The notes under the pieces: model-generated
What the model was told of the DNA's origin: nothing
The model's database searches: none
Seen by the model: the letters and a program-made list of their open reading frames with translations, nothing else
Part shown: positions 4,042 to 17,570 of the stretch, in pieces
Layout of the letters: each line of letters begins with the position of its first letter
How positions within the stretch are numbered: the first letter of the stretch is position 1
Program-made: the position numbers and the translations under genes
Source: a virus
IMG/VR virus record: IMGVR_UViG_3300030333_001988
Location: 1-28,667 of that record
Direction: 5' to 3' (one strand)
Length of the DNA stretch: 28,667 nucleotides

Positions 4042-5382
4042 TTAGCTGTTTAAGTCAGCAATCTTTGCTTGTACAAAGAAGTTGTGACATCTCATTTCAG
4101 CCATAGTGTAAAGAAGACCTCTTACAACCAAAGCATTGGCTGCGAAGTAGTCTCTATTCTCAACATACTGAGTAGGTTGAGCTACAGCTATTTCAAGATA
4201 GTCAGTATCCAAAACGTAAACGTTTGAACCTAGAGCAGTATCTGAAGAGTTAATTGACTTCGGAGTATCTGCATCAGGTAATATTGGAATACCTTGATAG
4301 GTTGCAAGAACAAGACCTGTTCTAGTACCGGGGAAAGTCTTTTCTGATCCGACACCAACTTGGTATTCTTCTTGTCCCATATACCTCTGTTGAGAGTTTA
4401 ATAATCTCTCTAACTTGAAGTACTGATCATGACCCATGATGATTACTTTAGGTTCACCACCATTGGTTCTGATTTTCTGGATAGCAGTATCTAAAAGGTT
4501 TAGAGATAAATCTCTTCCTGTACCACTATTGTAAGAAGCACTAGCAGCTGCATTCCATGCTCCTGCTGTTCTTCCTGCGACTGTTAAGTCATAAGCTGAA
4601 GGTGAAGCATTTACGCCACCTACTGCCATTCCGTCTTCGGCAACAACATCATCAAGGGATGTTATTCCAGCTCTTCTCAAAGCGAAAATAACGTCTCCGT
4701 CTGCTAGAGTTACTCCTGCAGCTCCGTGAGTAATTGTTGCTCCTGATACGCTAGATACAGTCACACTAGCGTCTGTTTTAATATTAGCTGTGGCTGAAGC
4801 ATCGTAGAAAGCTACTGTGTCGCCTACTTTAAAGTGGGCTGCTTCAGTTGAGTTTGAACCAAGTACCGATGTGGTAGTTGAACCACCTGATAATTGATAT
4901 GCAGAACCAGCTAATAATTCTTGGTTCATTTCTTTTACATGGTCAAGTTGAGCATTTTCGTTTTCTAATGCTAATACGTCACCTACACCACCTTCTAATT
5001 GGGCAGTAAATACGGACTTGACTGATGCTCCAAAGGTTGTTGATACAATCTTTGGTAGGGAGCTGACGCTTTCTATATTTGAAACGTCAACAGTAGGTAG
5101 AGTTCCTGTTTCAGTAACAGGTCGTGATCTTCCTGAACCTCTATCGGTTCTGATCCTCCAACCAGCTGTATTACCCCATACAGTTCTTGGTATTGCATTA
5201 AAAGCACGAGTTTGGTTGTTCAAAGCTTGCCATACTTTTCTTCCGTAAGTCGTATTGAATATGCCTGTTGCAGTATCTACAGTAAAGTAGGTCTGCTTCA
5301 TTAAATATTCAGGGCCAAATACTGAAGAGTATAGGCCTCTTTGACTCTGAGAAATATATTCCGATAAGGATGGATTTGCCAT
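4042..5382 (-). CDS. Major capsid protein
   Basis: 446 residues with the features of an HK97-fold major capsid protein: an N-terminal arm (1-35), a conserved region WRIRTDRGSGRSRPVTETGTLP (75-96), a long helix region around 125-160 (GDVLALENENAQLDHVKEMNQELLAG, the spine helix), and a C-terminal half with KVIIMGHDQYFKLERLL, GLVLATYQGIPILPD and a final ALVVRGLLYTMAEMRCHNFFVQAKI strand. Residues ~168-236 form an insertion of beta-rich type (FKVGDTVAFYD, followed by TLADGDVIFALRR), like the GD-rich insertion domains of other phage capsids. It follows the acidic probable scaffold and precedes a terminator-like hairpin, as expected for the most highly expressed gene. A GAGGAAATAAATATT site precedes the ATG. 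Procapsid maturation is probably by the protease encoded further downstream. Confidence 0.85.
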   Translation of the reverse strand: MANPSLSEYISQSQRGLYSSVFGPEYLMKQTYFTVDTATGIFNTTYGRKVWQALNNQTRAFNAIPRTVWGNTAGWRIRTDRGSGRSRPVTETGTLPTVDVSNIESVSSLPKIVSTTFGASVKSVFTAQLEGGVGDVLALENENAQLDHVKEMNQELLAGSAYQLSGGSTTTSVLGSNSTEAAHFKVGDTVAFYDASATANIKTDASVTVSSVSGATITHGAAGVTLADGDVIFALRRAGITSLDDVVAEDGMAVGGVNASPSAYDLTVAGRTAGAWNAAASASYNSGTGRDLSLNLLDTAIQKIRTNGGEPKVIIMGHDQYFKLERLLNSQQRYMGQEEYQVGVGSEKTFPGTRTGLVLATYQGIPILPDADTPKSINSSDTALGSNVYVLDTDYLEIAVAQPTQYVENRDYFAANALVVRGLLYTMAEMRCHNFFVQAKIADLNS

Positions 5383-5440: not shown

Positions 5441-6268
5441 TTATTTACCAATTAATTCTCGTGGAACACCATCGGTATCGCCCATTTCAATTTTACTTTG
5501 TAGGTCTCTCAATTCTTTATAAGAAAGAGAAGCAAGTTGGTCTACAGTATCTGCAGGATTATCTCCTTTTACGATAGGTGTAGTTCCATCTGTTCCTAGT
5601 GGGTGAGTAATTTTAGGGGCTTGTAGAGAAGTTTCTTCTCTGAATCCCATTTTTCTCAACCGACTTTCAGACTCTTCCTGAACAGCTTTTTCGATATTAG
5701 ACTCTGCATCACCTAATTGTTTTTTAAGTGCATCAAGTTCTTTTCTCATTGCTGTTATTGTGTCGTCTTCAGCTTTGTCCATTTCTTTTTCATCATCATC
5801 ATCTTCTTCTTTAGCTTTTGCCATTTCTTTTTCAGCATCGTCTTCTTCTTTGTCGTCATCTGCTTTCATTTTCACGCTAGCTTTTTCGGCATCTTCGTCA
5901 TCATCTTCTTCGTCAGCCTTTTGCATAGCTTGGATTGTTGCTTGCTGATCTTCTATTTTTGTGGTAGGTGAAGCTGGTTTTTCTTCGTCAGCTTGGCCTG
6001 CTGGGCCTTGTGAAGCTGATCTAACTTTATCACCATCTACATCCATGCCTTGATCGGCTTTCAATGTAGCGATAACGCTATCAGTAATGGACTTGACTAA
6101 AGCTTCTTGTTCAGCTTCAGCTGCCTTTTCCATTTCTTTCTCTTCTTCGTCTTCTTCTTCTTTCAGTAATCGAGCATCCATCTTTTGTAACACTTCTGCT
6201 ACAGCAGCAAGAGCTAGCTGATTGCCTTCCATGTGTTTTTCTAGATTCGCTAAGATTTCGTCAGACAT
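5441..6268 (-). CDS. Probable scaffolding protein, very acidic
   Basis: 275 residues dominated by Asp, Glu, Lys and Ala. After a short N-terminal helix (MSDEILANLEKHMEG) come several charged blocks: EEEDEEEKEMEKAAEAE near residue 35, then from ~110 to 170 a series of DDDKEEDDAEKEMAKA / EEDDDDEKEMDKAEDD repeats. A coiled coil follows (TITAMRKELDALKKQLGDAESNIEKAVQEE) and the C-terminal ~75 residues are more ordered. Length, charge, coiled coil and position immediately before the capsid gene are typical of phage scaffolds, which nucleate the procapsid and are cleaved or expelled. I chose the ATG with GGAGG six bases upstream rather than an upstream ATG giving six more residues. The function is inferred from context and composition, not from a recognised family motif. 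Confidence 0.6.
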   Translation of the reverse strand: MSDEILANLEKHMEGNQLALAAVAEVLQKMDARLLKEEEDEEEKEMEKAAEAEQEALVKSITDSVIATLKADQGMDVDGDKVRSASQGPAGQADEEKPASPTTKIEDQQATIQAMQKADEEDDDEDAEKASVKMKADDDKEEDDAEKEMAKAKEEDDDDEKEMDKAEDDTITAMRKELDALKKQLGDAESNIEKAVQEESESRLRKMGFREETSLQAPKITHPLGTDGTTPIVKGDNPADTVDQLASLSYKELRDLQSKIEMGDTDGVPRELIGK

Positions 6269-6286
6269 AAGTTTCCTCCATTCCAA

Positions 6287-6650: not shown

Positions 6651-7109
6651 TTATTTAACTCTATAATACTTTGCTAATTCTTCTTTTAAGATTTTTTCAT
6701 ATCTTTCACTAGCATCCTCAAGGTGTTTATCTATAAATCCTGAACCCTCTGAACCTTTTACTTCAGAAAGAGTTCTAAATACACCTTCAGATACTTGTAC
6801 AGGTCTCTTATCCCTAAGAATGTAGGAAGAAGCTGGTACATAAGACATTCTTCCATTCTTAGTTCTTCTTTGATAAGCTTTTCTATTTACTGTATAATCT
6901 CCTGTAAATTTTCTATCTTCTCCTACACCTTCATTAACTTCAGATGAATAAGGAGCAGCTACAGAGATAACAGCTTTAGGATAAGTTCCTGCTACAGATA
7001 TCGAATCTCTGAGATTTCCACTTTTTACAGGGGCAGATTCCTTTACCTTTTGTAAAGTATCAATTTTAAATCTATTGAATGTGTTTTTGAAAACTTTATC
7101 TAAAGACAT
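6651..7109 (-). CDS. HK97 gp10-like head-tail joining protein
   Basis: 152 residues. The N-terminal part contains KVKESAPVKSGNLRDSISV, the A-P-V-x-T/S-G-x-L-R-x-S-I motif of the HK97 gp10-like family of neck and head-tail connector proteins. It continues with a beta-rich section (ISVAAPYSSEVNEG, typical of the A-x-Y-A-x-x-V-E-x-G strand of that family) and a C-terminal helix (FIDKHLEDASERYEKILKEELAKYY). The family helps join the tail tube to the connector. The start was chosen at the ATG with GAGGTGGAA just upstream rather than a GTG two codons earlier. The location between portal and capsid fits. An AGTATAATA motif lies 15 bases upstream of the start. Confidence 0.75.
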   Translation of the reverse strand: MSLDKVFKNTFNRFKIDTLQKVKESAPVKSGNLRDSISVAGTYPKAVISVAAPYSSEVNEGVGEDRKFTGDYTVNRKAYQRRTKNGRMSYVPASSYILRDKRPVQVSEGVFRTLSEVKGSEGSGFIDKHLEDASERYEKILKEELAKYYRVK

Positions 7110-7123
7110 TTCCACCTCTTTTA

Positions 7124-7153: not shown

Positions 7154-8488
7154 CTAGTCAGCCCAAATTTCAGGTAAAACATCTTCAAATGCTTCTTCAC
7201 TTGAATCATATCGATTTAAATATATAACATTTTTACTTAGATATCCGTATTTAGGATGCCACCAAGTAATGATTTGTTTAGGTTTAGATATTAAATGAAG
7301 TCTATTTAAAGCATATTCGTCTCCACCTTTCATAGTTCCACATATAAATAACTCTCCTGTACCAATATCTATCTCATCTACTCTATGAAAATGTCCCATC
7401 ATAACAGTATCAAAATCATATCCTATCGGAGCAGCACTATCTATATTAAGCCTAGATACTTCTTCTTCTAGACCTTTCCTATATTGCAATACTCCTCTTA
7501 ATTTAGCAGCTGAGTTATTCATTCCTACTAAACTTCCTGAACCACTTATAGAATCTCCATGTAAAATAAGGAATTTTCTGTTTGCTGCTTCAAAGATATG
7601 AGCAAAACTTTTAGGTATTTCAAACTTTATATTCTTTTGATTTCTACAAAAAGTTGCTACCCATTGATACAACATGTAATCCCAATCTAAATATTTATCT
7701 TTAGCAGGTATCTTTCTAGTCATACGACCATGATTACCTACAACACAAGGAACTCTTATTTCTTCGTAGTGTGGAGCTAAATACATTAAAGCTTGAGCTA
7801 TTAAATTGGCTCCTCTAATCATTTGACCTAGATTATTGTCTGCATTTGTTCTAGCTAACTCATCATGTATATCCCCACTAATCATATCTCCAAGCATTGG
7901 AATTACTAAATGAGTGACTTCTGTATGAGTTCTTTGAAAGTTAGTTAGGTTTAATACTTGTTCAGCCCACCCATATAACCTTTTATTAAAGATATCTATG
8001 TCATAAGCATTTAATCCTAGCATTTGATCGGCACGAACAACGTCTCCAACATGAGTATCAGTCAAAGGAGCAATAGCTGTTACAGGACTTTTCCCTCTTA
8101 CTTTTCCTTTGGGTTTTGGGTATTTAATTTTAGGGTGACTTTTAAAAGCAGGGGCATAATCCTTAATAGCTTCTATGATAAGATCGACTTTTGTATTCTC
8201 TTTTAAAACCTTCTCATACATTTTTTTGAAGTATTTAGATTCAGCTTTATGGGTAATAACTTTCTTATCTAATTTTATCCTGTCTTCTTCGGATAGGTTT
8301 ACTTCAATTTCTATATCTTCTTCTTCTTTAATAGGTCTTGAATAAACCTCTTTTGCGTGCCATCTTGAAATGGTTGTTCTGTGAACCTTCACCCCATACT
8401 CTTCTTCCAACCAATTCCTTATGGCTGTCCAAGTCTCCCCCATTGCGTGTTTTCTTATTATCTCTGATTTTGCCTTTTCCGGTATCAT
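7154..8488 (-). CDS. Helix-turn-helix plus metallophosphoesterase fusion
   Basis: 444 residues in two parts. Residues ~8-48 (RKHAMGETWTAIRNWLEEEYGVKVHRTTISRW) form a helix-turn-helix like those of terminase small subunits and transposase-type DNA binders. A charged linker follows. Residues ~136-420 are a calcineurin-like metallophosphoesterase with the full metal-binding set: DTH (144-146), GD (200-201), GNH (251-253), HGD (310-312) and GHFH (365-368). Enzymes of this fold include phosphatases, 2',3'-cyclic phosphodiesterases and the Mre11/SbcD/T4 gp47 nucleases. No Rad50/SbcC/gp46 partner is in the window, so a standalone nuclease or phosphodiesterase recruited to DNA is the more likely reading. 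The gene lies between portal and neck genes, an unusual position. AGGAG with five bases spacing supports the start, inside the upstream zinc-ribbon frame. Confidence 0.8.
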   Translation of the reverse strand: MIPEKAKSEIIRKHAMGETWTAIRNWLEEEYGVKVHRTTISRWHAKEVYSRPIKEEEDIEIEVNLSEEDRIKLDKKVITHKAESKYFKKMYEKVLKENTKVDLIIEAIKDYAPAFKSHPKIKYPKPKGKVRGKSPVTAIAPLTDTHVGDVVRADQMLGLNAYDIDIFNKRLYGWAEQVLNLTNFQRTHTEVTHLVIPMLGDMISGDIHDELARTNADNNLGQMIRGANLIAQALMYLAPHYEEIRVPCVVGNHGRMTRKIPAKDKYLDWDYMLYQWVATFCRNQKNIKFEIPKSFAHIFEAANRKFLILHGDSISGSGSLVGMNNSAAKLRGVLQYRKGLEEEVSRLNIDSAAPIGYDFDTVMMGHFHRVDEIDIGTGELFICGTMKGGDEYALNRLHLISKPKQIITWWHPKYGYLSKNVIYLNRYDSSEEAFEDVLPEIWAD

Positions 8489-8612
8489 AACTTCTCCTAA
8501 TCTTTAAAACTATTATTTTTCCACAATATAAACATTGTAAATCTTTATCTTGATTTAGAAACATTTTCCCTGTACATTTAGGGCACTCCTGTTTAGATAA
8601 AATATTACTCAT
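8328..8612 (-). CDS. Zinc-ribbon protein overlapping the next gene out of frame
   Basis: 94 residues. The N-terminal part is a classic zinc ribbon: CPKC (10-13) and CLYC (27-30), separated by 13 residues, followed by GK. Such ribbons bind nucleic acid or stabilise small virion or regulatory proteins. Residues 42-94 are basic, lack recognisable structure and are encoded in the same DNA as the start of the phosphoesterase, one frame away, for 161 bases. Without this gene there would be a 116-base hole between its neighbours, and its ATG overlaps the upstream stop, so the ribbon portion is probably real. The C-terminal tail may be translated only because a nearer stop codon is absent. The ribosome binding site is weak, so it may depend on coupling. 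Confidence 0.55.
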   Translation of the reverse strand: MSNILSKQECPKCTGKMFLNQDKDLQCLYCGKIIVLKIRRSYDTGKGKIRDNKKTRNGGDLDSHKELVGRRVWGEGSQNNHFKMARKRGLFKTY

Positions 8613-9534
8613 TATCTACTTTTCTTAGTGCTTGGAACAGGGTTATTCCATCTTTATCTGCTAATTCTAACGCTTTTTCAAGTGAATGTAAAGGCTTATT
8701 AGCATCTAACTCTAAATCTATCTTGTCTTCTTCCTTTGATTTGTCTTTCTTGGCTCCTCTTAATAATTCATCATCTTGAGGATTTCCAAATTTATTAGGC
8801 TGTTTTGACAGTTGAACTATCCCTGCTGTTGCAGAAACTTCAGCGTCTAATTCTTTAGTATCTCTTCCTCTTGTTTTTCTTTTATTATCATCATCCATTT
8901 CAGTTACCTTCCTTTCAAAGTCGTTTTGTTCTATTACAGATAAATTTTGTTTTTTATCGTTATCTTCTCCTCTTTCTACATATTTAGGTGGATCATTTTC
9001 TTCGTGTCTAATCATATCTTTGTGTGGTTTTTGCCAATCTATTCGCATAGGATTGTTTACAGGTTGGGTTTGATATCCTGAAGAACTTCCTGTAAGAAGT
9101 CCTGATTGATTCCCTTTAGATATTTCAACATCCTTCTTTAATTTTTTTACAGGTGATCTGTCTGTCATCCATCTTTGAAGTCTTTCTACTCCTGATCTTT
9201 TTTTAGCACTTATTAATCCTTGACCTTTACTTCTTTTATCACGGATTTTCTTTTTTCGTTTGCGTGTTGACTTTGAACTACCATAAGTGGGAGTAAAGAT
9301 TCCTGAATTAGTTGAAGTGAAAACTGTACCACTACTTCCGTTAAAACCTCCCCCATTTTCTTTTCTCAGGTCATATACAATACTTTCTATTAATTTAGTT
9401 ATGTTCCCTTCTTGAAAACTTTTTTGATATCCTGATGCGTAAGCTGCTTGGGCAACTTGTTGGGCTTTCTTTTTTGAATTAAAGGGGCCTTTACTTCCCC
9501 AATACCATCCCTTATTGGTTTTCTTAATTGGCAT
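8605..9534 (-). CDS. Portal-adjacent basic accessory protein
   Basis: 309 residues. The N-terminus (KGWYWGSKGPFNSKKKAQQVAQAAYASGYQ) matches a short motif common in small phage proteins, W-G-S-K-G-P-F-x-S-K-x-K-A followed by A-x-A-x-Y-A-S-G. A very basic, apparently disordered stretch follows (STRKRKKKIRDKRSKGQG, ~90-107), then a long polar region with many Lys, Asp and Glu, and a C-terminal helix (HSLEKALELADKDGITLFQALRKV). Its ATG shares a base with the portal stop (TAATG), so the two are translationally coupled. The basic low-complexity region could bind DNA, for example as an internal head or packaging-associated protein. I recognise no enzyme domain; the role is unknown. Confidence 0.6.
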   Translation of the reverse strand: MPIKKTNKGWYWGSKGPFNSKKKAQQVAQAAYASGYQKSFQEGNITKLIESIVYDLRKENGGGFNGSSGTVFTSTNSGIFTPTYGSSKSTRKRKKKIRDKRSKGQGLISAKKRSGVERLQRWMTDRSPVKKLKKDVEISKGNQSGLLTGSSSGYQTQPVNNPMRIDWQKPHKDMIRHEENDPPKYVERGEDNDKKQNLSVIEQNDFERKVTEMDDDNKRKTRGRDTKELDAEVSATAGIVQLSKQPNKFGNPQDDELLRGAKKDKSKEEDKIDLELDANKPLHSLEKALELADKDGITLFQALRKVDNE

Positions 9535-11471
9535 TAATCTTCCTCGTCATCTTCTTTATCCTTTCTAGTATTTGAACCTGTAGGATTATATGAAACTGAA
9601 GGAACTGATGGTGTAAAAGAAGCTTTCTCAACATTTACTACTCCTGAAGGTGACAATGAAGCCACATAATCAACATTGTTTTGAGAGAACCACATTTGAG
9701 AGCCATCATCAGTTACAGATTTAATAATTGGAGATGTAAAACCTTGATCTGATAAATCTTCTATCCAAGATTTTTGATAATTTTTAGGATTTCCTCCTAT
9801 ATCTTTAAAACCATATGCTCTATCTTCTGCTTTTTTCTCTCTTTTTTTAGCCCATTCATCTATATCTCTTTCTTTATCGGGGCCTTTAGCATGAAAATCA
9901 GGTGTAAAAGCTTTTGCTACAGCTGTTTTTATAGCTTCTTCATCTATATTTAAGGATTTTTCCATCTCTTCGCCTTCTCCTTGCTCACTATCCCCTTGTT
10001 GCATAGCTTTCATCTGTTCAGCTTGTTCTTTTTGCTGTTCAATAGCCATAGCTGTCTGTTCTCCTTGCATTTTAGCTGTTGGAACAGGTTCTCCTGCTAT
10101 TATAAATTCAGCTTCATCTATTGGAACATCATCCTGTTTTAATTTAACATCGAATCCCATCTGTAAGTACTGATTAGCAATTTGAGCTCTTTGAGTAGCA
10201 AAACTTATTCTAGTTGCTTCTGCTTTTTCTTCAGGTTGTTCTAATTGAATAACCCAATCTTCAACAGATAAAGCATCCATAAGTAAAGGGATAACTTTTT
10301 CATGGAACAATCTTTGATCTGCTTCAACCACACGACCCATAACAACTAATTGTTGGGTTTGTGTTGATAAACCACCAAAAGCATCAGGAGTACCTTGCCA
10401 TGCAGGAGTAACACCCCACATTGCAGCTACTCTTTCTCTTATTTCCTGCCTAACAGGCAAATAATCCATTTCTTGTAAAGTATGGAATAGTCTAACCATA
10501 TCTACTCTACCTCTATTATTTCTAGAAGATACAGCTACCATAGGTATATAGTTAGGGTCTATTCTAGTTTGAGCTGCTATATGAGCTCTTTCCCTTCTTA
10601 AACTTTCAGGATCGTCTGTTGTTACCATTACCATAGAAGCAGGCATTTTTCTTTCGAAGAAATACCTATAAATATTTTTATCCATACCTATAAGAGTTAA
10701 AGCCTTTTCAAATATGGTTAATATAGGAGACCAACCATATGTTTCTGATGGAGAGAATTTAGAAGTGTGTATAACTTCCCCATCAAATAAATATACATGT
10801 TGATTTCTATGATAGTATTTGTACATAGCAGGCCATAATTTATGGCTACAGCCTGAAGATTTACAAATACCGGGTTTTTCGCTTACATCTTCTCTATGTA
10901 TAGGACATAAGAAATGAGAATTTTTAGGTAAACCAGCAGTATCTAAATCAAATTCTACTAGAGCTGGATTCAACCTTCGTATTTCTTTAACTCTAGAAGT
11001 TATTCTATTATCTTCTTTGGATGTATACTCTTTAACTAGATAAATAAACCCATCATCTATAGAATTTATGTCATAATGAACTTGTCTAAATACTTCTTCT
11101 AGGGTTTGATCAAAAATATTACAATCTAGAATTAGTTCTTCTAATCGTTTTTTCTCATCCAAGCTCGGATTTTGAACTTTAGGGACAATTTTTACTCCTC
11201 TTCTAAATACTTCACTAGTTATATGTCCTAGTGGAGACCTTATTTCAGCAACCGAATAAGTAATAGTTTGTAAATCCATTACTAATTGTTGTCTATAAGC
11301 CATTTGATGTCTGACCCATGTATTTACCACATGATCAAGACCTAATGTTGGGGCTGATGAAGTCTCTGAACTTGCTTTCATTAACTGCAATAAATTCAAA
11401 TTCTCGTTAAATTCAGTCATTTGATTAACTAATTGAGGTACTTCAGGAAGGTAATCACCTAATTTTGCCAT
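9534..11471 (-). CDS. Portal protein
   Basis: 645 residues. The order of motifs is that of a phage portal: an N-terminal region with TWVRHQMAYRQQLVMDLQTITYSVAEIRSPLG, a wing with a gene-specific CxxC-type insert (CPIHREDVSEKPGICKSSGCSHKLWP, ~190-215), HTSKFSPSETYGWSPILTIFEKALTLIGMDKNIYRYFFERKMP (stem and clip region), and VAAMWGVTPAWQGTPDAFGGLSTQTQQLVVMGRVVEADQRLFHEKVIPLLMDAL, the characteristic G-V-P-P followed by a long helix near the crown. The C-terminal ~180 residues are Gln/Glu-rich and then unstructured, ending in KEDDEED. The portal is the dodecameric DNA channel at one vertex and docks the terminase. AGGTGAAAAT precedes the ATG. The insert with His and Cys suggests a metal site and is unusual. 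Confidence 0.85.
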   Translation of the reverse strand: MAKLGDYLPEVPQLVNQMTEFNENLNLLQLMKASSETSSAPTLGLDHVVNTWVRHQMAYRQQLVMDLQTITYSVAEIRSPLGHITSEVFRRGVKIVPKVQNPSLDEKKRLEELILDCNIFDQTLEEVFRQVHYDINSIDDGFIYLVKEYTSKEDNRITSRVKEIRRLNPALVEFDLDTAGLPKNSHFLCPIHREDVSEKPGICKSSGCSHKLWPAMYKYYHRNQHVYLFDGEVIHTSKFSPSETYGWSPILTIFEKALTLIGMDKNIYRYFFERKMPASMVMVTTDDPESLRRERAHIAAQTRIDPNYIPMVAVSSRNNRGRVDMVRLFHTLQEMDYLPVRQEIRERVAAMWGVTPAWQGTPDAFGGLSTQTQQLVVMGRVVEADQRLFHEKVIPLLMDALSVEDWVIQLEQPEEKAEATRISFATQRAQIANQYLQMGFDVKLKQDDVPIDEAEFIIAGEPVPTAKMQGEQTAMAIEQQKEQAEQMKAMQQGDSEQGEGEEMEKSLNIDEEAIKTAVAKAFTPDFHAKGPDKERDIDEWAKKREKKAEDRAYGFKDIGGNPKNYQKSWIEDLSDQGFTSPIIKSVTDDGSQMWFSQNNVDYVASLSPSGVVNVEKASFTPSVPSVSYNPTGSNTRKDKEDDEED

Positions 11472-11961: not shown

Positions 11962-12399
11962 TTACTTTTTTCGATACTTTGCTGTTTTTCGAGCTATTCT
12001 CTTGGGTTGGGCTGAGAATTGTTTCCCTTGTTTAGTAGCCTTCCTTTTAGCTCTTGTACTAGCTCCATATTCTTGTGGAGATAAAGCTTGTCTAGCTTTT
12101 TTAGGTAAATACCTTTCTCCTGTCTTTCTACTAGGTTTACCTGATTTAGTTCCCCATTTCTGTTTAGTCCACCTACTTAATCCTGTTTTACCTGTCTTCT
12201 TTCCTTTATATCCCCCACCTGATTTTTTATATCTTTGTACAGCTAATTGAGCTTTACGAGCAGACCATTGACCTGCTCTTCCACCTTTACTACCTGCTTT
12301 TACAGCAGATTTTATTCTAGACCATAAAGCAGGATTCCGTTTCTTAGCTGTCTTCTTTGCTTTACTTATTATATCCGAAAAGATTTCTTTATGCAACAT
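11962..12399 (-). CDS. Small very basic protein, DUF5872-like
   Basis: 145 residues, extremely rich in Lys and Arg. It contains GRAGQWSARKAQLAVQRYKKSGGGYKG, then LSRWTKQKWGTKSGKP, then ERYLPKKARQALSPQEYGASTRAKRKATKQGKQF. This ordered set (ARKAQL, GGGYKGKK, W-x-x-x-x-W-x-T, RYLPK-A-x-x-x-LSP-x-E, KR) matches a family of small basic proteins found in phages, bacteria and large DNA viruses, which I recall as DUF5872 but cannot verify here. The function of that family is unknown to me; a nucleic-acid-binding or DNA-condensing role is inferred from charge. I chose the ATG that overlaps the end of the ribonucleotide reductase by 11 bases; an upstream start would add twelve residues. Confidence 0.7.
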   Translation of the reverse strand: MLHKEIFSDIISKAKKTAKKRNPALWSRIKSAVKAGSKGGRAGQWSARKAQLAVQRYKKSGGGYKGKKTGKTGLSRWTKQKWGTKSGKPSRKTGERYLPKKARQALSPQEYGASTRAKRKATKQGKQFSAQPKRIARKTAKYRKK

Positions 12400-14260
12400 G
12401 ACAAAGACTCCAACCACATGATTTACAAGTTTCACATCCTGACTCTTCTACTATATTAGGTGAATCGCAACACATAGAAACTTCTTCTTCTTTTTTATCG
12501 GTTCCTTTTACTAAAACTTCTTTTTCTCGGCTTCCTGCCCTGTAAACTGTAATACCTTTACAACCTGTTTCCCATGCCAATAGATATGCTTCTTGAACAT
12601 CTTCTCTAGTAGCTTCGTTTGGAAAATTGATTGTTTTAGATATACCTGAATCAACAGACTTTTGAAAAGCTGATTGCATTAATACATGAGCTTCAGGTGA
12701 AATTTCAGGAGAAGTAATATACACATCCTTTATCCATTGTGGAACTTCATCTCTATCTTGTAAAGAACCCCCATTAGATAAATATTCCATTAAATCTTCG
12801 GAATAAAATCCGTGTTTTTTCGCATCTGCTTCAAAATACTTATTAGAATAGTATAAAGTTTTACCTTCTAATATGTTAGCTTTCTTCCAAACTAATGCGA
12901 AAGAAGGTTCTATTCCACTAGAACAACCTGCAATCATAGAAATAGTTCCTGTTGGGGCTACTGTCATTCTACAAGCATTTCTATATTCATCCTTCCCTTC
13001 TCCTGCAGGATATACTCCTCTAAGATTAGCTAAATGTTTTGAGTAAAGATCAGAATGTTCTCTAATAAATTTCATTAGAGATTCTCCCACTTCTCTAGCT
13101 AGTTCTGTATTATATGGAATTCGCAATTGAATTAATAAATCAGCAAAACCCATAACACCTAATCCTATCTTTCGAGTAGATTTTGTCATATCTTCTATAT
13201 CTTTAGTAGCATATTTATTTGCATCAATTACATTATCTAAAAAGTGTGTAGATAGAGTAGTAACTTTTTTCAAATTATCCCAATCTATTTTATCTTCCCA
13301 ACTTCCTTCAACATTCCTATAAAATTTAGCTAGGTTTATTGAGCCTAAATTACAACTTTCATTTCCTAAAAGTGGTTGTTCCCCACAAGGATTAGTTGCA
13401 ACCATTTCTCCGAGAGTATCTATAACAACATTATCTTCGTTTACTTTGTCCAAGAAAATCATGCCGGGTTCTCCATTTCTCCAAGCCCCATCTACTATAG
13501 TACTAAACAATTCTCTTGCATCTATCCATTTAGTAATTTGTTTAGTGTTTGGATTAACAAGAGGATAACTAGTATTATTCTTCACAGCTTCCATGAACTT
13601 GGTATCTACACCTACTGAAATATTAAAATTATGTATATCGCCTTCTACAGCTTTACAAGAAATAAACTCTTCAATATCAGGATGAGATACAGCCATTACT
13701 GCCATATTTGCCCCATCTCTTTTACCCCCTTGAGTTATCATTGAAGATACTTGAGATAGTGTTTTTAAAACAGCTATAGGGCCACAAGCAATTCCATGAG
13801 TAGTTTTTATTTTATCTCCTTTTGGTCTTAGGTGTGATAAGGCAAAGCCTGTACCCCCACCAAATTTTTGAACCATAGCTATATCATGAGCTGTTTTCAT
13901 TATGTCTTCCATAGAGTCTTCTAGTGGAAGTACAAAACAAGCTGACAATGTTCCTTGTTCAGTTCCTGCATTCATAAGGGTAGGTGAATTAGGAATAAAT
14001 TCTAATTTTGACATCATAGAATAGAAATCTTTTTCTAATAATTCTGATTCTACAGGTAAAATTTTATAGTCTTTTTCTATAGAAGAGACAGCTTTTGCTA
14101 CTCTCCTAAACAAATCTGAACTATTTTCGGTAACTTCCCCTTCAGTATCTTTTAAATAATACCTATGGTTTAATACTACCTCAGCTTGTTCGGTCAGCTC
14201 TGATTCAGACTCTGATACTTCTTCGGTTTGTTCATTAAGAGATGTTGTTATATTATCCAT
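12389..14260 (-). CDS. nrdJ: Adenosylcobalamin-dependent ribonucleotide reductase, class II
   Basis: 623 residues. Reduces ribonucleotides to deoxyribonucleotides for phage DNA synthesis, using a B12 cofactor radical instead of a separate radical-generating subunit. Diagnostic segments: IPNSPTLMNAG then SACFVLPLEDSMEDI (Cys108, first redox cysteine), KFGGGTGFALSHLRPKGD, RDGANMAVM, NPCGE (290-294, with active-site Cys292 and Glu294), CNLGSINL (Cys303, second redox cysteine), and APTGTISMIAGCSSGIEPSF. The C-terminal tail has six cysteines (597, 598, 609, 612, 615, 620), which probably form a zinc ribbon and/or shuttle reducing equivalents. No ATP-cone is visible. No small subunit or activase is seen nearby, in keeping with class II. 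AAGGAG is five bases before the ATG. It sits between terminase and portal, outside the replication block. Confidence 0.93.
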   Translation of the reverse strand: MDNITTSLNEQTEEVSESESELTEQAEVVLNHRYYLKDTEGEVTENSSDLFRRVAKAVSSIEKDYKILPVESELLEKDFYSMMSKLEFIPNSPTLMNAGTEQGTLSACFVLPLEDSMEDIMKTAHDIAMVQKFGGGTGFALSHLRPKGDKIKTTHGIACGPIAVLKTLSQVSSMITQGGKRDGANMAVMAVSHPDIEEFISCKAVEGDIHNFNISVGVDTKFMEAVKNNTSYPLVNPNTKQITKWIDARELFSTIVDGAWRNGEPGMIFLDKVNEDNVVIDTLGEMVATNPCGEQPLLGNESCNLGSINLAKFYRNVEGSWEDKIDWDNLKKVTTLSTHFLDNVIDANKYATKDIEDMTKSTRKIGLGVMGFADLLIQLRIPYNTELAREVGESLMKFIREHSDLYSKHLANLRGVYPAGEGKDEYRNACRMTVAPTGTISMIAGCSSGIEPSFALVWKKANILEGKTLYYSNKYFEADAKKHGFYSEDLMEYLSNGGSLQDRDEVPQWIKDVYITSPEISPEAHVLMQSAFQKSVDSGISKTINFPNEATREDVQEAYLLAWETGCKGITVYRAGSREKEVLVKGTDKKEEEVSMCCDSPNIVEESGCETCKSCGWSLCHVA

Positions 14261-14269
14261 TTCTACTCC

Positions 14270-15943
14270 TTATCCTCTGTAATTGCAATATAAACATAAT
14301 TTATTTTCTAGAACCCAAAATTCCGGTACACAAAACTGTTCCCTACAGTTAGGGTTTAATGATTCCATATCTCTTTCCTGAACTCCGTCAATCGAGATTG
14401 TTGTTTTAGTGTCTCCTTCAAATTTTAATTTTTTAAGTACAGGATGTTCTTTAGGTTTAGGCGATTCGTCAGGTGATATAGCATCTAACCAATCTCCAAG
14501 CCCTCCCACAGCCTCGTATTTGTATTCTTCTGTTTCGTGTATAGCTTGTAAAGCCATAGCTATTGAGAAGAAAGCATCTCCATGACCCATTGGGGTTTCA
14601 GGAGCTTTTAACTCATTATTAACTGAGATTATTTGTTGTTTTTGTCTCTCATCTTTTATCAACTTTAAGTTTCCTGATACTATAAATTTCTCAAAGACTT
14701 GAGCCATTGTATTTTTAGACTTTCTTGTAAAAGACATTGATCTCCAAAGTCTATGTAAGCCCCTATCTTCTAACTCTCCTCTAGTATTATCTACATAACC
14801 TCCATCTAATTGGTAGTTTTCAGCTACGTCATTCAGATACTTTACTTGGTCTGTATATGCCCACCCATCTAAAAAGGAAGAATGGATTTGTTTTACTTGA
14901 TCTTTTATTCTACTGAATAAAACTAAATGGGAAGGGTGTCTCTTTTTACCTACATCAAACCCCCCAAATATTTGCTCATCCATAGATTTTAGATATGTTT
15001 TATTATACGATAAATTTACTAATTTTTCGTCTTCACAAGCAGTAATTTGATCCTCTTCAAAATAAGATTCAGTAGAAAAGTGTGGTTGCAATAAAAACTC
15101 TGAAGCAAAAGACTTAGGTCTTGCTTTTTGTTGATTTAATAACCACTCCTCTGAATATAATTCAGGCATCAATACTCTTCTTTTTGGTTCAGGGTCTAAA
15201 GCAGGTAATGTTCTTGCTATAAATCTTTCGTCTTCTTGTAACTTACTTAATAAATCTCCGGGCATCATGGGTGTTCCTAATACAATAACAGGAACTCCTT
15301 TTAATGGTATGAACATTGATTCTGTCATGAAGTGGTCTTCAACTTTAGTTATCTGCCCCATATTCAAAGGGTTTTCAGGGTCTCTTAATACGTCATCGGC
15401 AATCAAAGCTCCATTGACGTGCATACCTCTTTTAAAGGAAAACAATCCTCCATGCATAATTTCCATAGGGTTTTTATTTATATAATACCTAAAAGAAAAA
15501 TCTGCTTTCGGTGATCTATTTACCATCATACTTGTTAAGATAGGGTTTCTTTGAACTGATTTATTTATTTCTGATAAATGATATCTAGCCATTCCATCAC
15601 TAAATGATAGATAAAGAACTGACATATCTCTTTTTGATTGTAATAATCTCCATACACTAAAAGCATGACCTAGAATAGTAGATTTAAAATGAAATCTTGG
15701 GAGAACAGCTACATAGTTTTTATCCTCTTCCAAGCATCTTTCTATATCTTCTGCTAAAACCCCTATATGCCAAGCATTAAAATATTCAGGGTGATCGAAA
15801 CTATAAGCCCAAACATCTGTTAAAAAGGAGTGAAAACTTCCTTCAAACTTTTTGCCATCTGTAGATACTAACCCATCTGCTAATGTTTCAAAAGCGTCTG
15901 TATATGAAATTAATTCTTTTTTAAAATCTGATTTTTTATTCAT
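14270..15943 (-). CDS. terL: Terminase large subunit
   Basis: 557 residues; the ATP-driven motor that packages DNA and cuts the concatemer. ATPase: a deviant Walker A PRFHFKST (82-89) and Walker B ALIADDVL (Asp183-Asp184), followed by the coupling motif VIVLGTPM (219-226). Nuclease: RNase H-like acidic residues Asp330 (GGFDVGKK), Asp385 (YVDNTRGE) and Asp456 (GHGDAF). The P-R-x-x-x-KS/T form of Walker A is known in phage terminases that lack the classical G-x-x-x-x-G-K. The last ~30 residues carry four cysteines (533, 538, 550, 553; C-x4-C-x11-C-x2-C), a zinc-ribbon-like tail not common in this family. The gene overlaps the small subunit by eight bases. Confident identification from motif order and neighbours. 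Confidence 0.92.
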   Translation of the reverse strand: MNKKSDFKKELISYTDAFETLADGLVSTDGKKFEGSFHSFLTDVWAYSFDHPEYFNAWHIGVLAEDIERCLEEDKNYVAVLPRFHFKSTILGHAFSVWRLLQSKRDMSVLYLSFSDGMARYHLSEINKSVQRNPILTSMMVNRSPKADFSFRYYINKNPMEIMHGGLFSFKRGMHVNGALIADDVLRDPENPLNMGQITKVEDHFMTESMFIPLKGVPVIVLGTPMMPGDLLSKLQEDERFIARTLPALDPEPKRRVLMPELYSEEWLLNQQKARPKSFASEFLLQPHFSTESYFEEDQITACEDEKLVNLSYNKTYLKSMDEQIFGGFDVGKKRHPSHLVLFSRIKDQVKQIHSSFLDGWAYTDQVKYLNDVAENYQLDGGYVDNTRGELEDRGLHRLWRSMSFTRKSKNTMAQVFEKFIVSGNLKLIKDERQKQQIISVNNELKAPETPMGHGDAFFSIAMALQAIHETEEYKYEAVGGLGDWLDAISPDESPKPKEHPVLKKLKFEGDTKTTISIDGVQERDMESLNPNCREQFCVPEFWVLENKLCLYCNYRG

Positions 15944-16445
15944 GTTCTTTCAAAACACCTTGCAATTTAATACTTATCTTCTTTAATAATTCTTTATCTT
16001 CAATTTCGTCTACGAGAACGCCTACTATATCCTGAACAAAACTTAAATTAATTAAACCTTCCATTACTTTTCTTTCTCCTTGTATACCCATATCTAATGC
16101 TTTGGCAGCCCCCTCAGCAGTTTTAAAGTCTAATACACCTAATTCTGCTAAGGCTTTACTTCTAAGAGTAGTATATTCATCTAAATGTTCTAGCTGTGTT
16201 CTAGCTGCTCTTTGACTTTGGGTTTCTACTACTGAATCTTTAACTTTCTTAGCTACTTTAGAATCTATTTCTTGCATATCCTCATCCCATTTATTTCTTG
16301 ATGGCCAAGAATAAACTGTAGATTTAGCTATATTTTCTTTAGGGTAGGTTTTAAGTAATTCTTCATATACTTCGTTAATTGTTTTGCCCTCTAAATATAA
16401 TTTTTGAGCTTTTTGTTTCATTTCTTTTGGTAATATTTTCGGCAT
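15936..16445 (-). CDS. terS: Terminase small subunit-like protein
   Basis: 169 residues. The N-terminus (ALPKEMKQKAQKLYLEGKTINEVYEELLKTY-type region, residues ~5-52) forms a helix-turn-helix ending in STVYSWPSRNKWDEDM, the S-T-x-x-x-W-x-x-x-x-x-W signature of small terminase subunits that recognise the packaging site. The rest is helical and probably mediates ring formation. The overlap with the large subunit (eight bases) is the usual arrangement of the pair. The ribosome binding site is weak; translation may depend on the preceding gene, whose stop lies three bases upstream. An alternative is a transcriptional regulator with the same domain, but the neighbour makes packaging more likely. 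Confidence 0.75.
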   Translation of the reverse strand: MPKILPKEMKQKAQKLYLEGKTINEVYEELLKTYPKENIAKSTVYSWPSRNKWDEDMQEIDSKVAKKVKDSVVETQSQRAARTQLEHLDEYTTLRSKALAELGVLDFKTAEGAAKALDMGIQGERKVMEGLINLSFVQDIVGVLVDEIEDKELLKKISIKLQGVLKEHE

Positions 16446-16448
16446 ATT

Positions 16449-16901
16449 TTAATAATCCATATCATAATTTAAATGTTCTTCAGGGTGTACAGCTTGAGAG
16501 TTCAAACTTCCACCAAAAGGTGTTCCATCAGATTGTAACATTTTTGAAAAATCCATATGTCCTGTTTTACCATTTTTAGCAGGTACAAAACAAATTGGAG
16601 ATTCTTGTTTGGCTCCTCCTTTTGTAGTTCTTCTTTGGAACCTAATTGCTATTTCATTAGGTCTTCCACAAATACCAACCCAAGATTCATCTTTAGTTCC
16701 TAAAGGTCTATAGTATCTATTATTTAAAACACTTCCTACAGTTCTCTTTAACCCTTTGGGTCTTGAGTTCCAAAAACAATCATTAAAATCACACCAAACT
16801 AATTTTCCATATTGTTTAAATAAATCTTCTTGTGTAACCCCTTCAGGTAAACTATCCTTTGGTAACTCTTCTTTTTTTGTCTTCTTGCTTTTCTTGTTCA
16901 T
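16449..16901 (-). CDS. 150-residue hypothetical protein before the terminase
   Basis: The N-terminus is strongly basic (NKKSKKTKKEE), followed by a compact region with several aromatic and cysteine residues (LVWCDFNDCFWNSRPKG), then NRYYRPLGTKDESWVGICGRPNEIAIRFQRRTTKGG and a C-terminal segment ending HPEEHLNYDMDY. No family is recognised. The start is an ATG with GGAG seven bases upstream, inside the end of the RuvC-like gene, giving a 50-base overlap. Context (RuvC before, terminase after) suggests a DNA-processing or packaging role, but this is only inference. Confidence 0.6.
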   Translation of the reverse strand: MNKKSKKTKKEELPKDSLPEGVTQEDLFKQYGKLVWCDFNDCFWNSRPKGLKRTVGSVLNNRYYRPLGTKDESWVGICGRPNEIAIRFQRRTTKGGAKQESPICFVPAKNGKTGHMDFSKMLQSDGTPFGGSLNSQAVHPEEHLNYDMDY

Positions 16902-17370
16902 CAATTTTCTCCAACTCGAACTGTCTTTTTATCCATAATGCTATACAGGCTGCATCTGCAAAATCCTGTTCTTCAAAAGTCTCTCCCCAATGTTTCTCAG
17001 CGAAAGCTTTTATCTCTATTTTAGAGGCGTTTCCTTTTCCTATAATATCTTTTTTCCATTTAGTATTATCGATTGGAACACAATCAATTCCATACTTATG
17101 ACAAAGATATCTTACACATCCTACTACTGAAGCTAAAGCTATAGTAGATTTAGGATTCTGTATAAAGATAGCTGCTTCTACAGCTGCTTGAGCCTCTTTA
17201 CTTATTGTACTTAAATAGTGATCAAAGTCTGACATAAAATTAAAGAATCTTTCATCAAAATCTTTGGCTTTATGTTCCCACTTTACTTGTTTTAATATAG
17301 ACCCTCCATTGCCTAACCACACAGAATGTATAGCTTTGCTTGAACAATCTATTCCAATAAAATTTTTCAT
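16852..17370 (-). CDS. RuvC-like Holliday junction resolvase
   Basis: 172 residues with the RNase H-like fold of RuvC. Four acidic residues are in the expected positions: Asp8 (FIGIDCSS), Glu65 (AAVEAAIF), Asp136 and Asp139 (QDFADAACIAL). The strand YGIDCVPIDNTKWKK and helix GKGNASKIEIKAFAE match the central part of RuvC, where G-x-G-x-A-x-K is typical. It cuts four-way junctions in replicating or recombining phage DNA, which removes branches before packaging. The charged C-terminus (DEQEKQEDKKRRVTKG) is extra. Its ATG overlaps the preceding stop (ATGA). The start was placed at MKNFIGID because it gives the canonical RuvC N-terminus. Confidence 0.8.
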   Translation of the reverse strand: MKNFIGIDCSSKAIHSVWLGNGGSILKQVKWEHKAKDFDERFFNFMSDFDHYLSTISKEAQAAVEAAIFIQNPKSTIALASVVGCVRYLCHKYGIDCVPIDNTKWKKDIIGKGNASKIEIKAFAEKHWGETFEEQDFADAACIALWIKRQFELEKIDEQEKQEDKKRRVTKG

Positions 17371-17570
17371 TCTTGATCTGTGTTTCGGTCTAACATCACA
17401 GATTCTAAAGCTTCTAAACAAGTATGTGCTTCTGAGACAATGTCTAACATTAACTCAGCATCTTCTTTATAAGCAGCATATCTCATGCCACTTACAGTTT
17501 TTGATAGATCATTTATCAGCTCACTTACTGCGTAATCATCCCATTCATGTATAAATTCTGAAACATCCAT
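17367..17570 (-). CDS. 67-residue acidic hypothetical protein
   Basis: A short helical, acidic protein (MDVSEFIHEWDDYAVSELIN at the start, then a helix through AYKEDAELMLDIVSEAHTCLEALESVML). No motif recognised. Its start shares a base with the stop of the preceding gene (TAATG) and its stop overlaps the RuvC-like start (ATGA), so it is tightly coupled on both sides and may be a partner of either neighbour. AAAGGAG lies 11 bases upstream. Confidence 0.6.
   Translation of the reverse strand: MDVSEFIHEWDDYAVSELINDLSKTVSGMRYAAYKEDAELMLDIVSEAHTCLEALESVMLDRNTDQE

Follow-up and report, generated by a model that had tools for sequence, protein, structure and literature searches.

A candidate zinc-ribbon reading frame over the DNA-binding domain of a head-cassette metallophosphoesterase in a lineage of uncultured tailed phages

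Why does a tailed phage encode a metallophosphoesterase (MPE) with a DNA-binding domain among its head genes, and what else does the DNA for that domain encode? We addressed this question in an IMG/VR virus record (IMGVR_UViG_3300030333_001988), the whole 28,667 bases of which we term the window; it has 33% GC, and its identified genes all lie on the minus strand. An earlier note on this DNA had described a protein that joins a small-terminase-like helix-turn-helix (HTH) to a complete calcineurin-type active site, is encoded between portal and neck genes and has no visible Rad50-like partner. The open reading frame (ORF) is real and exact (7154-8488, minus strand), the portal (9534-11471) and an HK97-gp10-type neck gene (6651-7115) flank it, and both halves of the protein were confirmed by motifs and by a profile match to the small terminase (TerS). 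The note missed a second ORF, for a zinc-ribbon protein (8328..8612), that lies over the HTH-coding region. The cassette runs from the terminase subunits through a class II ribonucleotide reductase, the portal, a 309-aa protein, the MPE gene, the neck, a 70-aa protein, an acidic protein and the capsid to the prohead protease, and the features discussed below are:

15936..16445, minus strand: small-terminase-like protein (TerS); weak terminase matches, hhalign
14270..15943, minus strand: terminase large subunit; PHROG 38, E 8.8e-24
9534..11471, minus strand: portal protein, upstream side of the cassette; PHROG portal, E 6.4e-41
8605..9534, minus strand: uncharacterised 309-aa protein between portal and zinc ORF; conserved position, no informative family match
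8328..8612, minus strand: predicted zinc-ribbon protein ORF, 94 aa, CxxC...CxxC; translation, relatives, wobble-site test
8523..8585, minus strand: zinc-ribbon core, C10 to C30 of the 94-aa protein; Cys conservation in aligned proteins
8494..8498, minus strand: Shine-Dalgarno-like AGGAG of the MPE gene, within the zinc ORF; conserved ahead of the MPE start in the relatives inspected
7154..8488, minus strand: HTH-MPE gene, 444 aa, PHROG 284 family; ORF and translation
8339..8488, minus strand: HTH domain, MPE residues 1-50; model (pLDDT about 79-92 in this part), profile match to the phage's TerS
8156..8290, minus strand: long helix joining HTH to catalytic domain, residues 67-111; model
7208..8083, minus strand: metallophosphoesterase domain, residues 136-427; alignment, fold match to PolD DP1 and Mre11
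6651..7115, minus strand: HK97-gp10-like neck protein; Pfam PF04883, 23.8 bits against a cut-off of 21.4
4042..5382, minus strand: major capsid protein, downstream side of the cassette; Pfam SU10_MCP, 52.2 bits against a cut-off of 24.1
318-1631: prohead protease

Several neighboring genes deserve separate mention. The class II (B12-dependent) ribonucleotide reductase gene (12389-14260) occupies the terminase/portal interval, also in the related loci that extend that far, and is adjoined by the gene for a very basic, uncharacterised 157-aa protein (11962-12435). A RuvC-like resolvase gene (16852-17421) lies one gene from the small terminase gene in the window and related loci. A very acidic, repetitive and uncharacterised 281-aa protein (5441-6286), possibly a scaffold, precedes the capsid gene. 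The prohead protease, capsid and portal are related to proteins of haloarchaeal Druskaviridae (HVTV-1, HCTV-1), and the same phage encodes a sigma-70-like protein and bacterial-type PolA and RecA.

The MPE protein belongs to the metallophosphoesterase superfamily, with all five motifs, namely DTH (D144/H146), GD (D201), GNH (N252/H253), HGD (H310) and GHFH (H366/H368), and all seven metal ligands (D144, H146, D201, N252, H310, H366 and H368) present, and with H253 as a catalytic-type histidine. In an alignment of 59 sequences, made after 12 distant loci without a clean ORF had been excluded from the distant-relative set and including relatives at 20-30% identity, D144, D201, N252, H253, H310, H366 and H368 are invariant and H146 is at least 90% conserved. 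The PHROG 284 ('exonuclease') profile matches residues 18-415, HTH included, at E 1.2e-45 (profile positions 20-385 of 398) and also matched 10/10 further members tested. Pfam Metallophos (PF00149) had no match in the window, and phmmer and profile searches of PDB sequences with the MPE gave no usable relative (SbcD, E 0.65). Relatives detected by tblastn are present in 110 of 50,697 phage records, all at less than 60% identity, and the N-termini of distant members, assigned by eye, comprise an HTH, a Cys4 segment (S-CBS1 type) or a zinc ribbon (L091). Since the PHROG 284 profile spans the HTH and other phages carry HTH or Cys4 heads on the same domain, the pairing of HTH and MPE is not unusual, as it had been thought to be; judged from sequence, the enzyme is in itself a typical member of its family, and its fusion is of a known kind. 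The earlier note had also considered that the fusion might be common in packaging operons with a known role: it is indeed common in phages, and the literature searched yielded no packaging role for it. Neither of the two outcomes that the note named as refuting its view has thus come about in full. In the Actinomycetia phage DSL-LC01 (L083:1299-2551), two neighboring genes encode the HTH-like part and the MPE separately, the upstream HTH-like ORF being annotated as 'terminase small subunit'.

The new element, and the most interesting feature here, is the predicted dual-coding zinc-ribbon gene over the HTH. The zinc ORF begins at 8612 and overlaps the MPE gene by 161 nt (8328-8488, stop included) in another frame, spanning the whole HTH-coding part. 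The MPE start and its own Shine-Dalgarno sequence lie inside the zinc ORF. Relative to the zinc frame, the MPE frame is +1 in every case, and a stop 15 nt upstream closes it. We reduced 202 loci to 130 unique genes by removing truncated, edge and duplicate genes; the zinc ORF is found with 99 of these, including two (L115 and L116) set by hand to zinc-positive as their Cys spacing is longer than the pattern, and it is open for 149-197 nt into the MPE gene in 99/99. None of the 31 genes without it is open for more than 98 nt in the zinc frame. C10, C13, C27 and C30 of the zinc protein are invariant in 17/17 aligned proteins; the protein had no match above the curated cut-off in the one Pfam listing with cut-offs (P0002), its best Pfam E-value over 17 members was 1.1e-4 (TackOD1, from a summary without bit scores), and its PHROG matches are weak.

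Over the overlap, the zinc frame is free of stops to a degree that chance does not explain. Synonymous recoding of 19 representatives gave an expectation of 107 ± 6.6 zinc-frame stops in codons 1-49, against 0 observed, and in seven other 49-codon blocks the observed stops were about as expected in six and higher in one (106 vs 85.3). At the stop-creating wobble sites of zinc-positive genes, T occurs at 0/1116 in codons 2-49 versus 4731/8789 in codons 63-440, and harmless wobble positions of codons 2-49 in these genes carry T at 642/2168; zinc-negative genes have T at 112/316 stop-creating sites, and as many of the tested genes are related, these counts are not independent. One relative (L088), zinc-negative in the 130-gene count, was omitted from this test. 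The zinc-negative genes are also short of stops in codons 1-49 (35 vs 50.6 ± 5.1 expected, in 11 related genes). In a tree of the non-overlapping part, they form one clade (support 100/99) nested among the zinc-positive genes, and because of this nesting the overlap was probably ancestral to the lineage and lost once. The overlap has an internal control in the clade that lost the zinc ORF, which has stops there. In the same tree, the window is sister to all other close rows, with the root less sure owing to long outgroup branches. We found no description of a zinc-ribbon/HTH overlap in the literature searched, including that on phage overlapping genes and alternative reading frames.

The domain beneath this overlap is modeled as a three-helix HTH (helices 4-15, 20-31 and 37-49). 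With hhalign, a profile of the first 66 residues aligned to the profile of the phage's TerS over 50 columns (probability 73.6, E 2.9e-5); run against single sequences, the same profile gave probabilities of at most 0.3 for four other window proteins and a weak 5.0 for TerS. A relationship between the MPE HTH and that of the phage's own small terminase is thus supported at the profile level, and the generic nature of HTH domains counts against TerS-based targeting. We reject the MPE protein as the small terminase of this phage: another gene, TerS-like and located ahead of TerL, is a better fit, and the rest of the protein is an MPE.

The structural model from the 59-sequence alignment (pLDDT 85.1), which superseded a poor one from 25 sequences (pLDDT 66), consists of the three-helix HTH, a long helix (67-111) and an MPE fold (136-427). 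In Foldseek, DP1, the exonuclease subunit of archaeal PolD, fills the first nine rows (best E 2.5e-11). VIA-align, queried with about residues 121-429 of the model, likewise ranks DP1 best (Z 18.7, rmsd 3.6, 237 residues aligned), followed by an archaeal phosphodiesterase (15.3) and Mre11 (14.8); Vps29, LpxH and cyclic phosphodiesterases match the MPE fold too in these searches. The DP1 ligands (D, H, D, N, H, H, H) and catalytic H451, as given in PMC10721889, correspond in type and order to D144, H146, D201, N252, H310, H366 and H368, with H451 equivalent to H253, when paired by order and aligned range. The structure prediction proposed by the earlier note and the comparison of ligands return the Mre11/DP1 ligand set, which does not alone settle the substrate: this set is common to MPEs with many substrates, and that counts against reading DNA from the ligands.

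We considered and rejected two assignments. Membership in DP1 fails on domain composition, as residues 1-135 of the model hold only helices and loops, with no beta barrel and hence no OB domain, and an HTH and long helix instead; lacking DP1's OB domain, the protein is filed as neither DP1 nor Mre11, with a predicted DP1/Mre11-like working. The phage's recognised polymerase is a family A PolA with an exonuclease-type domain of its own (RNase_H_2), and therefore proofreading by the MPE is not needed. A cyclic phosphodiesterase that removes a host signal or defense nucleotide, as had also been suggested, is without specific support, and Rv0805 (3ib7; Foldseek E 1.1e-6) ranks behind DP1. The Rad50-type AAA_23 domain (PF13476) was matched in 0/9 viral records of the lineage, the window and eight others that may be fragments.

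With a probability of roughly 0.5, we posit that the MPE is a PHROG 284 metal-dependent DNA nuclease, aimed by its HTH at phage DNA, late and linked to packaging, the HTH DNA being dual-coding; the data show the motif set and the fold (by alignment and prediction), synteny throughout the lineage, the kinship of the HTH with TerS and the avoidance of stops in the second frame, and we infer DNA as the substrate, the polarity and timing of the activity, its link to packaging, dimerisation and any cooperation with the zinc protein. Catalysis would be DP1/Mre11-like: two Asp, one Asn and four His would bind a pair of metals, and an additional His would serve as acid. The TerS-related N-terminal HTH would bring the enzyme to phage DNA. 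There, independently of a Rad50-type ATPase, its probable action is to trim 3' ends or to nick DNA that is branched or single-stranded; it may dimerise through the long helix, potentially as a coiled coil. Encoded with the late head genes, the MPE would most likely clean up ends, gaps or branches in phage DNA that is replicating or concatemeric, either ahead of packaging or in its course. The DNA for the HTH would also be read in another frame as the C-terminal tail of the zinc-ribbon protein, so that 149-197 nt would be dual-coding. The 'exonuclease' family name, the DP1 fold and the location of some relatives among recombination genes (S-CBS1, KBS-S-2A, BU2-1) all favor a nuclease, as does the DNA-degrading activity reported for another phage MPE, A10ZJ24 gp48 (PMC12287305). 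DNA processing, as earlier proposed, is accordingly plausible and the leading guess in light of PHROG 284 and the DP1-like fold, with the packaging role remaining conjectural.

The genomic position bears directly on the packaging link. Among 80 IMG/VR loci with a close relative, the denominators being those with enough flank, the portal or 309-aa gene lies upstream in 52/52 and head genes lie downstream in 34/34; both flanks are head-type in 23/23 loci having both, and the upstream genes are on the wrong side in 0/80. The lineage is at about 55-60% protein identity to the window, and other inserts vary around the fixed MPE position. A relative at 47% identity (L088), on a groundwater contig binned as Candidatus Daviesbacteria, has downstream a neck-like gene, a homologue of the 70-aa protein and a protease homologue; the neck-like gene and the protease homologue appear to be interrupted by what we take to be intein-like insertions (L088:9939-11674 and 12865-14754). 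In the seven annotated phages inspected, the MPE is not beside portal or packaging genes and lies in or near recombination, replication and other non-head genes: near exonuclease VIII in S-CBS1 and KBS-S-2A, flanked by an annealing protein and DNA polymerase in Bacteroides phage BU2-1 and by endonuclease VII and holin genes in Vibrio phage 1.204, elsewhere and away from the portal in the Alicyclobacillus and Actinomycetia phages, and, in ct7QV12, at a distance of a few genes from those for a DNA injection protein and an endonuclease. The nearest catalogued capsid and portal relatives are mostly from haloarchaeal Druskaviridae, whose own MPE is near 15.6 kb, away from head genes. Tabulating the fusion against portal genes, as the earlier note had advised, gives co-occurrence within the marine lineage and none in the seven annotated relatives inspected; the head-cassette position is fixed in the marine lineage and lineage-specific.

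The same distribution could be read differently: the MPE would be a general recombination and repair nuclease, whose site among head genes was reached once in an ancestor, kept by descent and devoid of functional meaning. Whole-cassette synteny can persist by descent, and S-CBS1, KBS-S-2A and BU2-1 do have the family among exonuclease, single-strand-binding/annealing and polymerase genes. Nevertheless, the position is kept in every informative locus despite varying inserts in a lineage at about 55-60% identity, the 47% identical relative likewise has head genes downstream, and the HTH resembles the phage's TerS, and we regard this reading as unlikely. Counter-defense, in which the enzyme degrades host DNA or a nucleotide signal instead of tending phage DNA, has precedents. 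The MPE gp48 of mycobacteriophage A10ZJ24 is described in PMC12287305 as DNA-degrading, early and counter-defensive, and T5 A1 orthologues are proposed to act on defense signals (PMC7824862). Yet there was no PADLOC match, the place among head genes suggests late expression as opposed to the early expression of gp48, and the HTH resembles a small terminase, making counter-defense improbable relative to a packaging-linked nuclease.

What the zinc tail does is less sharply indicated. At codons 37-48, similarity in the zinc frame rises above the null (z 7.8), and does so only in zinc-positive genes; at codons 1-12 it is likewise raised (z 8.2), but zinc-negative genes score about equally there. 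Codons 25-36 fall under the null (z -3.3), and sixteen downstream windows range between -1.3 and 2.4. Close pairs show little synonymous change at codons 2-12 (0.06, 0.10), also in zinc-negative genes, and the values are 0.20 and 0.47 at codons 13-36 versus 0.22 and 0.40 at codons 140-440; among distant representatives, codons 1-20 alone stand out clearly in column-wise synonymous conservation. Of the 18 representatives whose start was called, 17 have a basic tail (net charge +6 to +11; 0 in L056), which fits a nucleic-acid-binding role. Taken at the sequence level, the tail is probably translated, yet much of its sequence appears free to change. This freedom at codons 13-36, together with the stop deficit and the low change at codons 2-12 in zinc-negative genes, speaks against strong selection on the tail.

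Accordingly, one might suppose that the frame is open for the sake of translation itself, regulating or coupling the MPE gene, and that the tail peptide is functionless. The lack of clear synonymous constraint between close pairs at codons 13-36 and the below-null conservation of the zinc frame at codons 25-36 speak for this, but start-codon coupling would not require 149-197 nt of further reading, and neither the excess at codons 37-48, confined to zinc-positive genes, nor the basic character of the tail in 17/18 representatives would be expected; we hold it to be somewhat doubtful. A +1 shift from the zinc ORF into the MPE frame, yielding a zinc-ribbon-MPE protein without the HTH, would accord with the constant frame relationship, with the zinc stop at MPE codons 50-66, close to the junction of HTH and linker, and with relatives bearing a Cys4 or zinc-ribbon head fused in frame. 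However, the end of the zinc ORF has no conserved codons or stop (TAA, TAG and TGA all occur), and a Shine-Dalgarno sequence and start codon serve the MPE separately; with no conserved site there, we reject such a fusion as highly improbable. More speculatively, and with low confidence, a single DNA-maturation machine could have both the zinc ribbon and the HTH as targeting heads, the two being encoded by the same nucleotides. The zinc protein would then be the in-trans counterpart of the fused Cys4 or zinc-ribbon heads and would assist or regulate the nuclease while DNA is packaged, and neither head could evolve independently of the other because they share their DNA.

If these predictions hold, part of a second protein is encoded by the same DNA as the entire DNA-binding domain of an enzyme from a tailed phage. 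An ORF of this kind will probably be dropped by gene callers that restrict overlaps on one strand, and other phages may therefore conceal comparable cases, which the wobble-site test would find. Likewise, the predicted Rad50-free, HTH-targeted nuclease among head genes becomes directly testable.

Comparison with known systems places both elements. According to PMC2268670, overlapping genes can form by loss of the upstream gene's stop codon, whereby, as here, the upstream gene continues into the next gene in another frame; the overlap in the window differs in covering a whole DNA-binding domain over 149-197 nt and in being kept across a diverse uncultured phage lineage. DP1 is the closest solved fold, with the same metal ligands and catalytic His as the modeled MPE, but has an OB-like domain before its catalytic domain where the MPE has an HTH and long helix. 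Mre11/SbcD shares the MPE nuclease core (Z up to 14.8) and ligand set, whereas the window MPE has an N-terminal HTH, no Rad50/SbcC-type ATPase found in the nine records searched and a weaker fold match to Mre11 than to DP1. A10ZJ24 gp48 is likewise a phage MPE, likened to ours by description and not by sequence; the reported nuclease activity is that of gp48 itself, as are the early expression and counter-defense role. Finally, PHROG 284 members such as Synechococcus phage S-CBS1 gp28 and Vibrio phage 1.204.O gp30 resemble the window protein in catalytic domain and profile match, and it is the head-cassette position and the overlapping zinc-ribbon ORF that set the window lineage apart from them.
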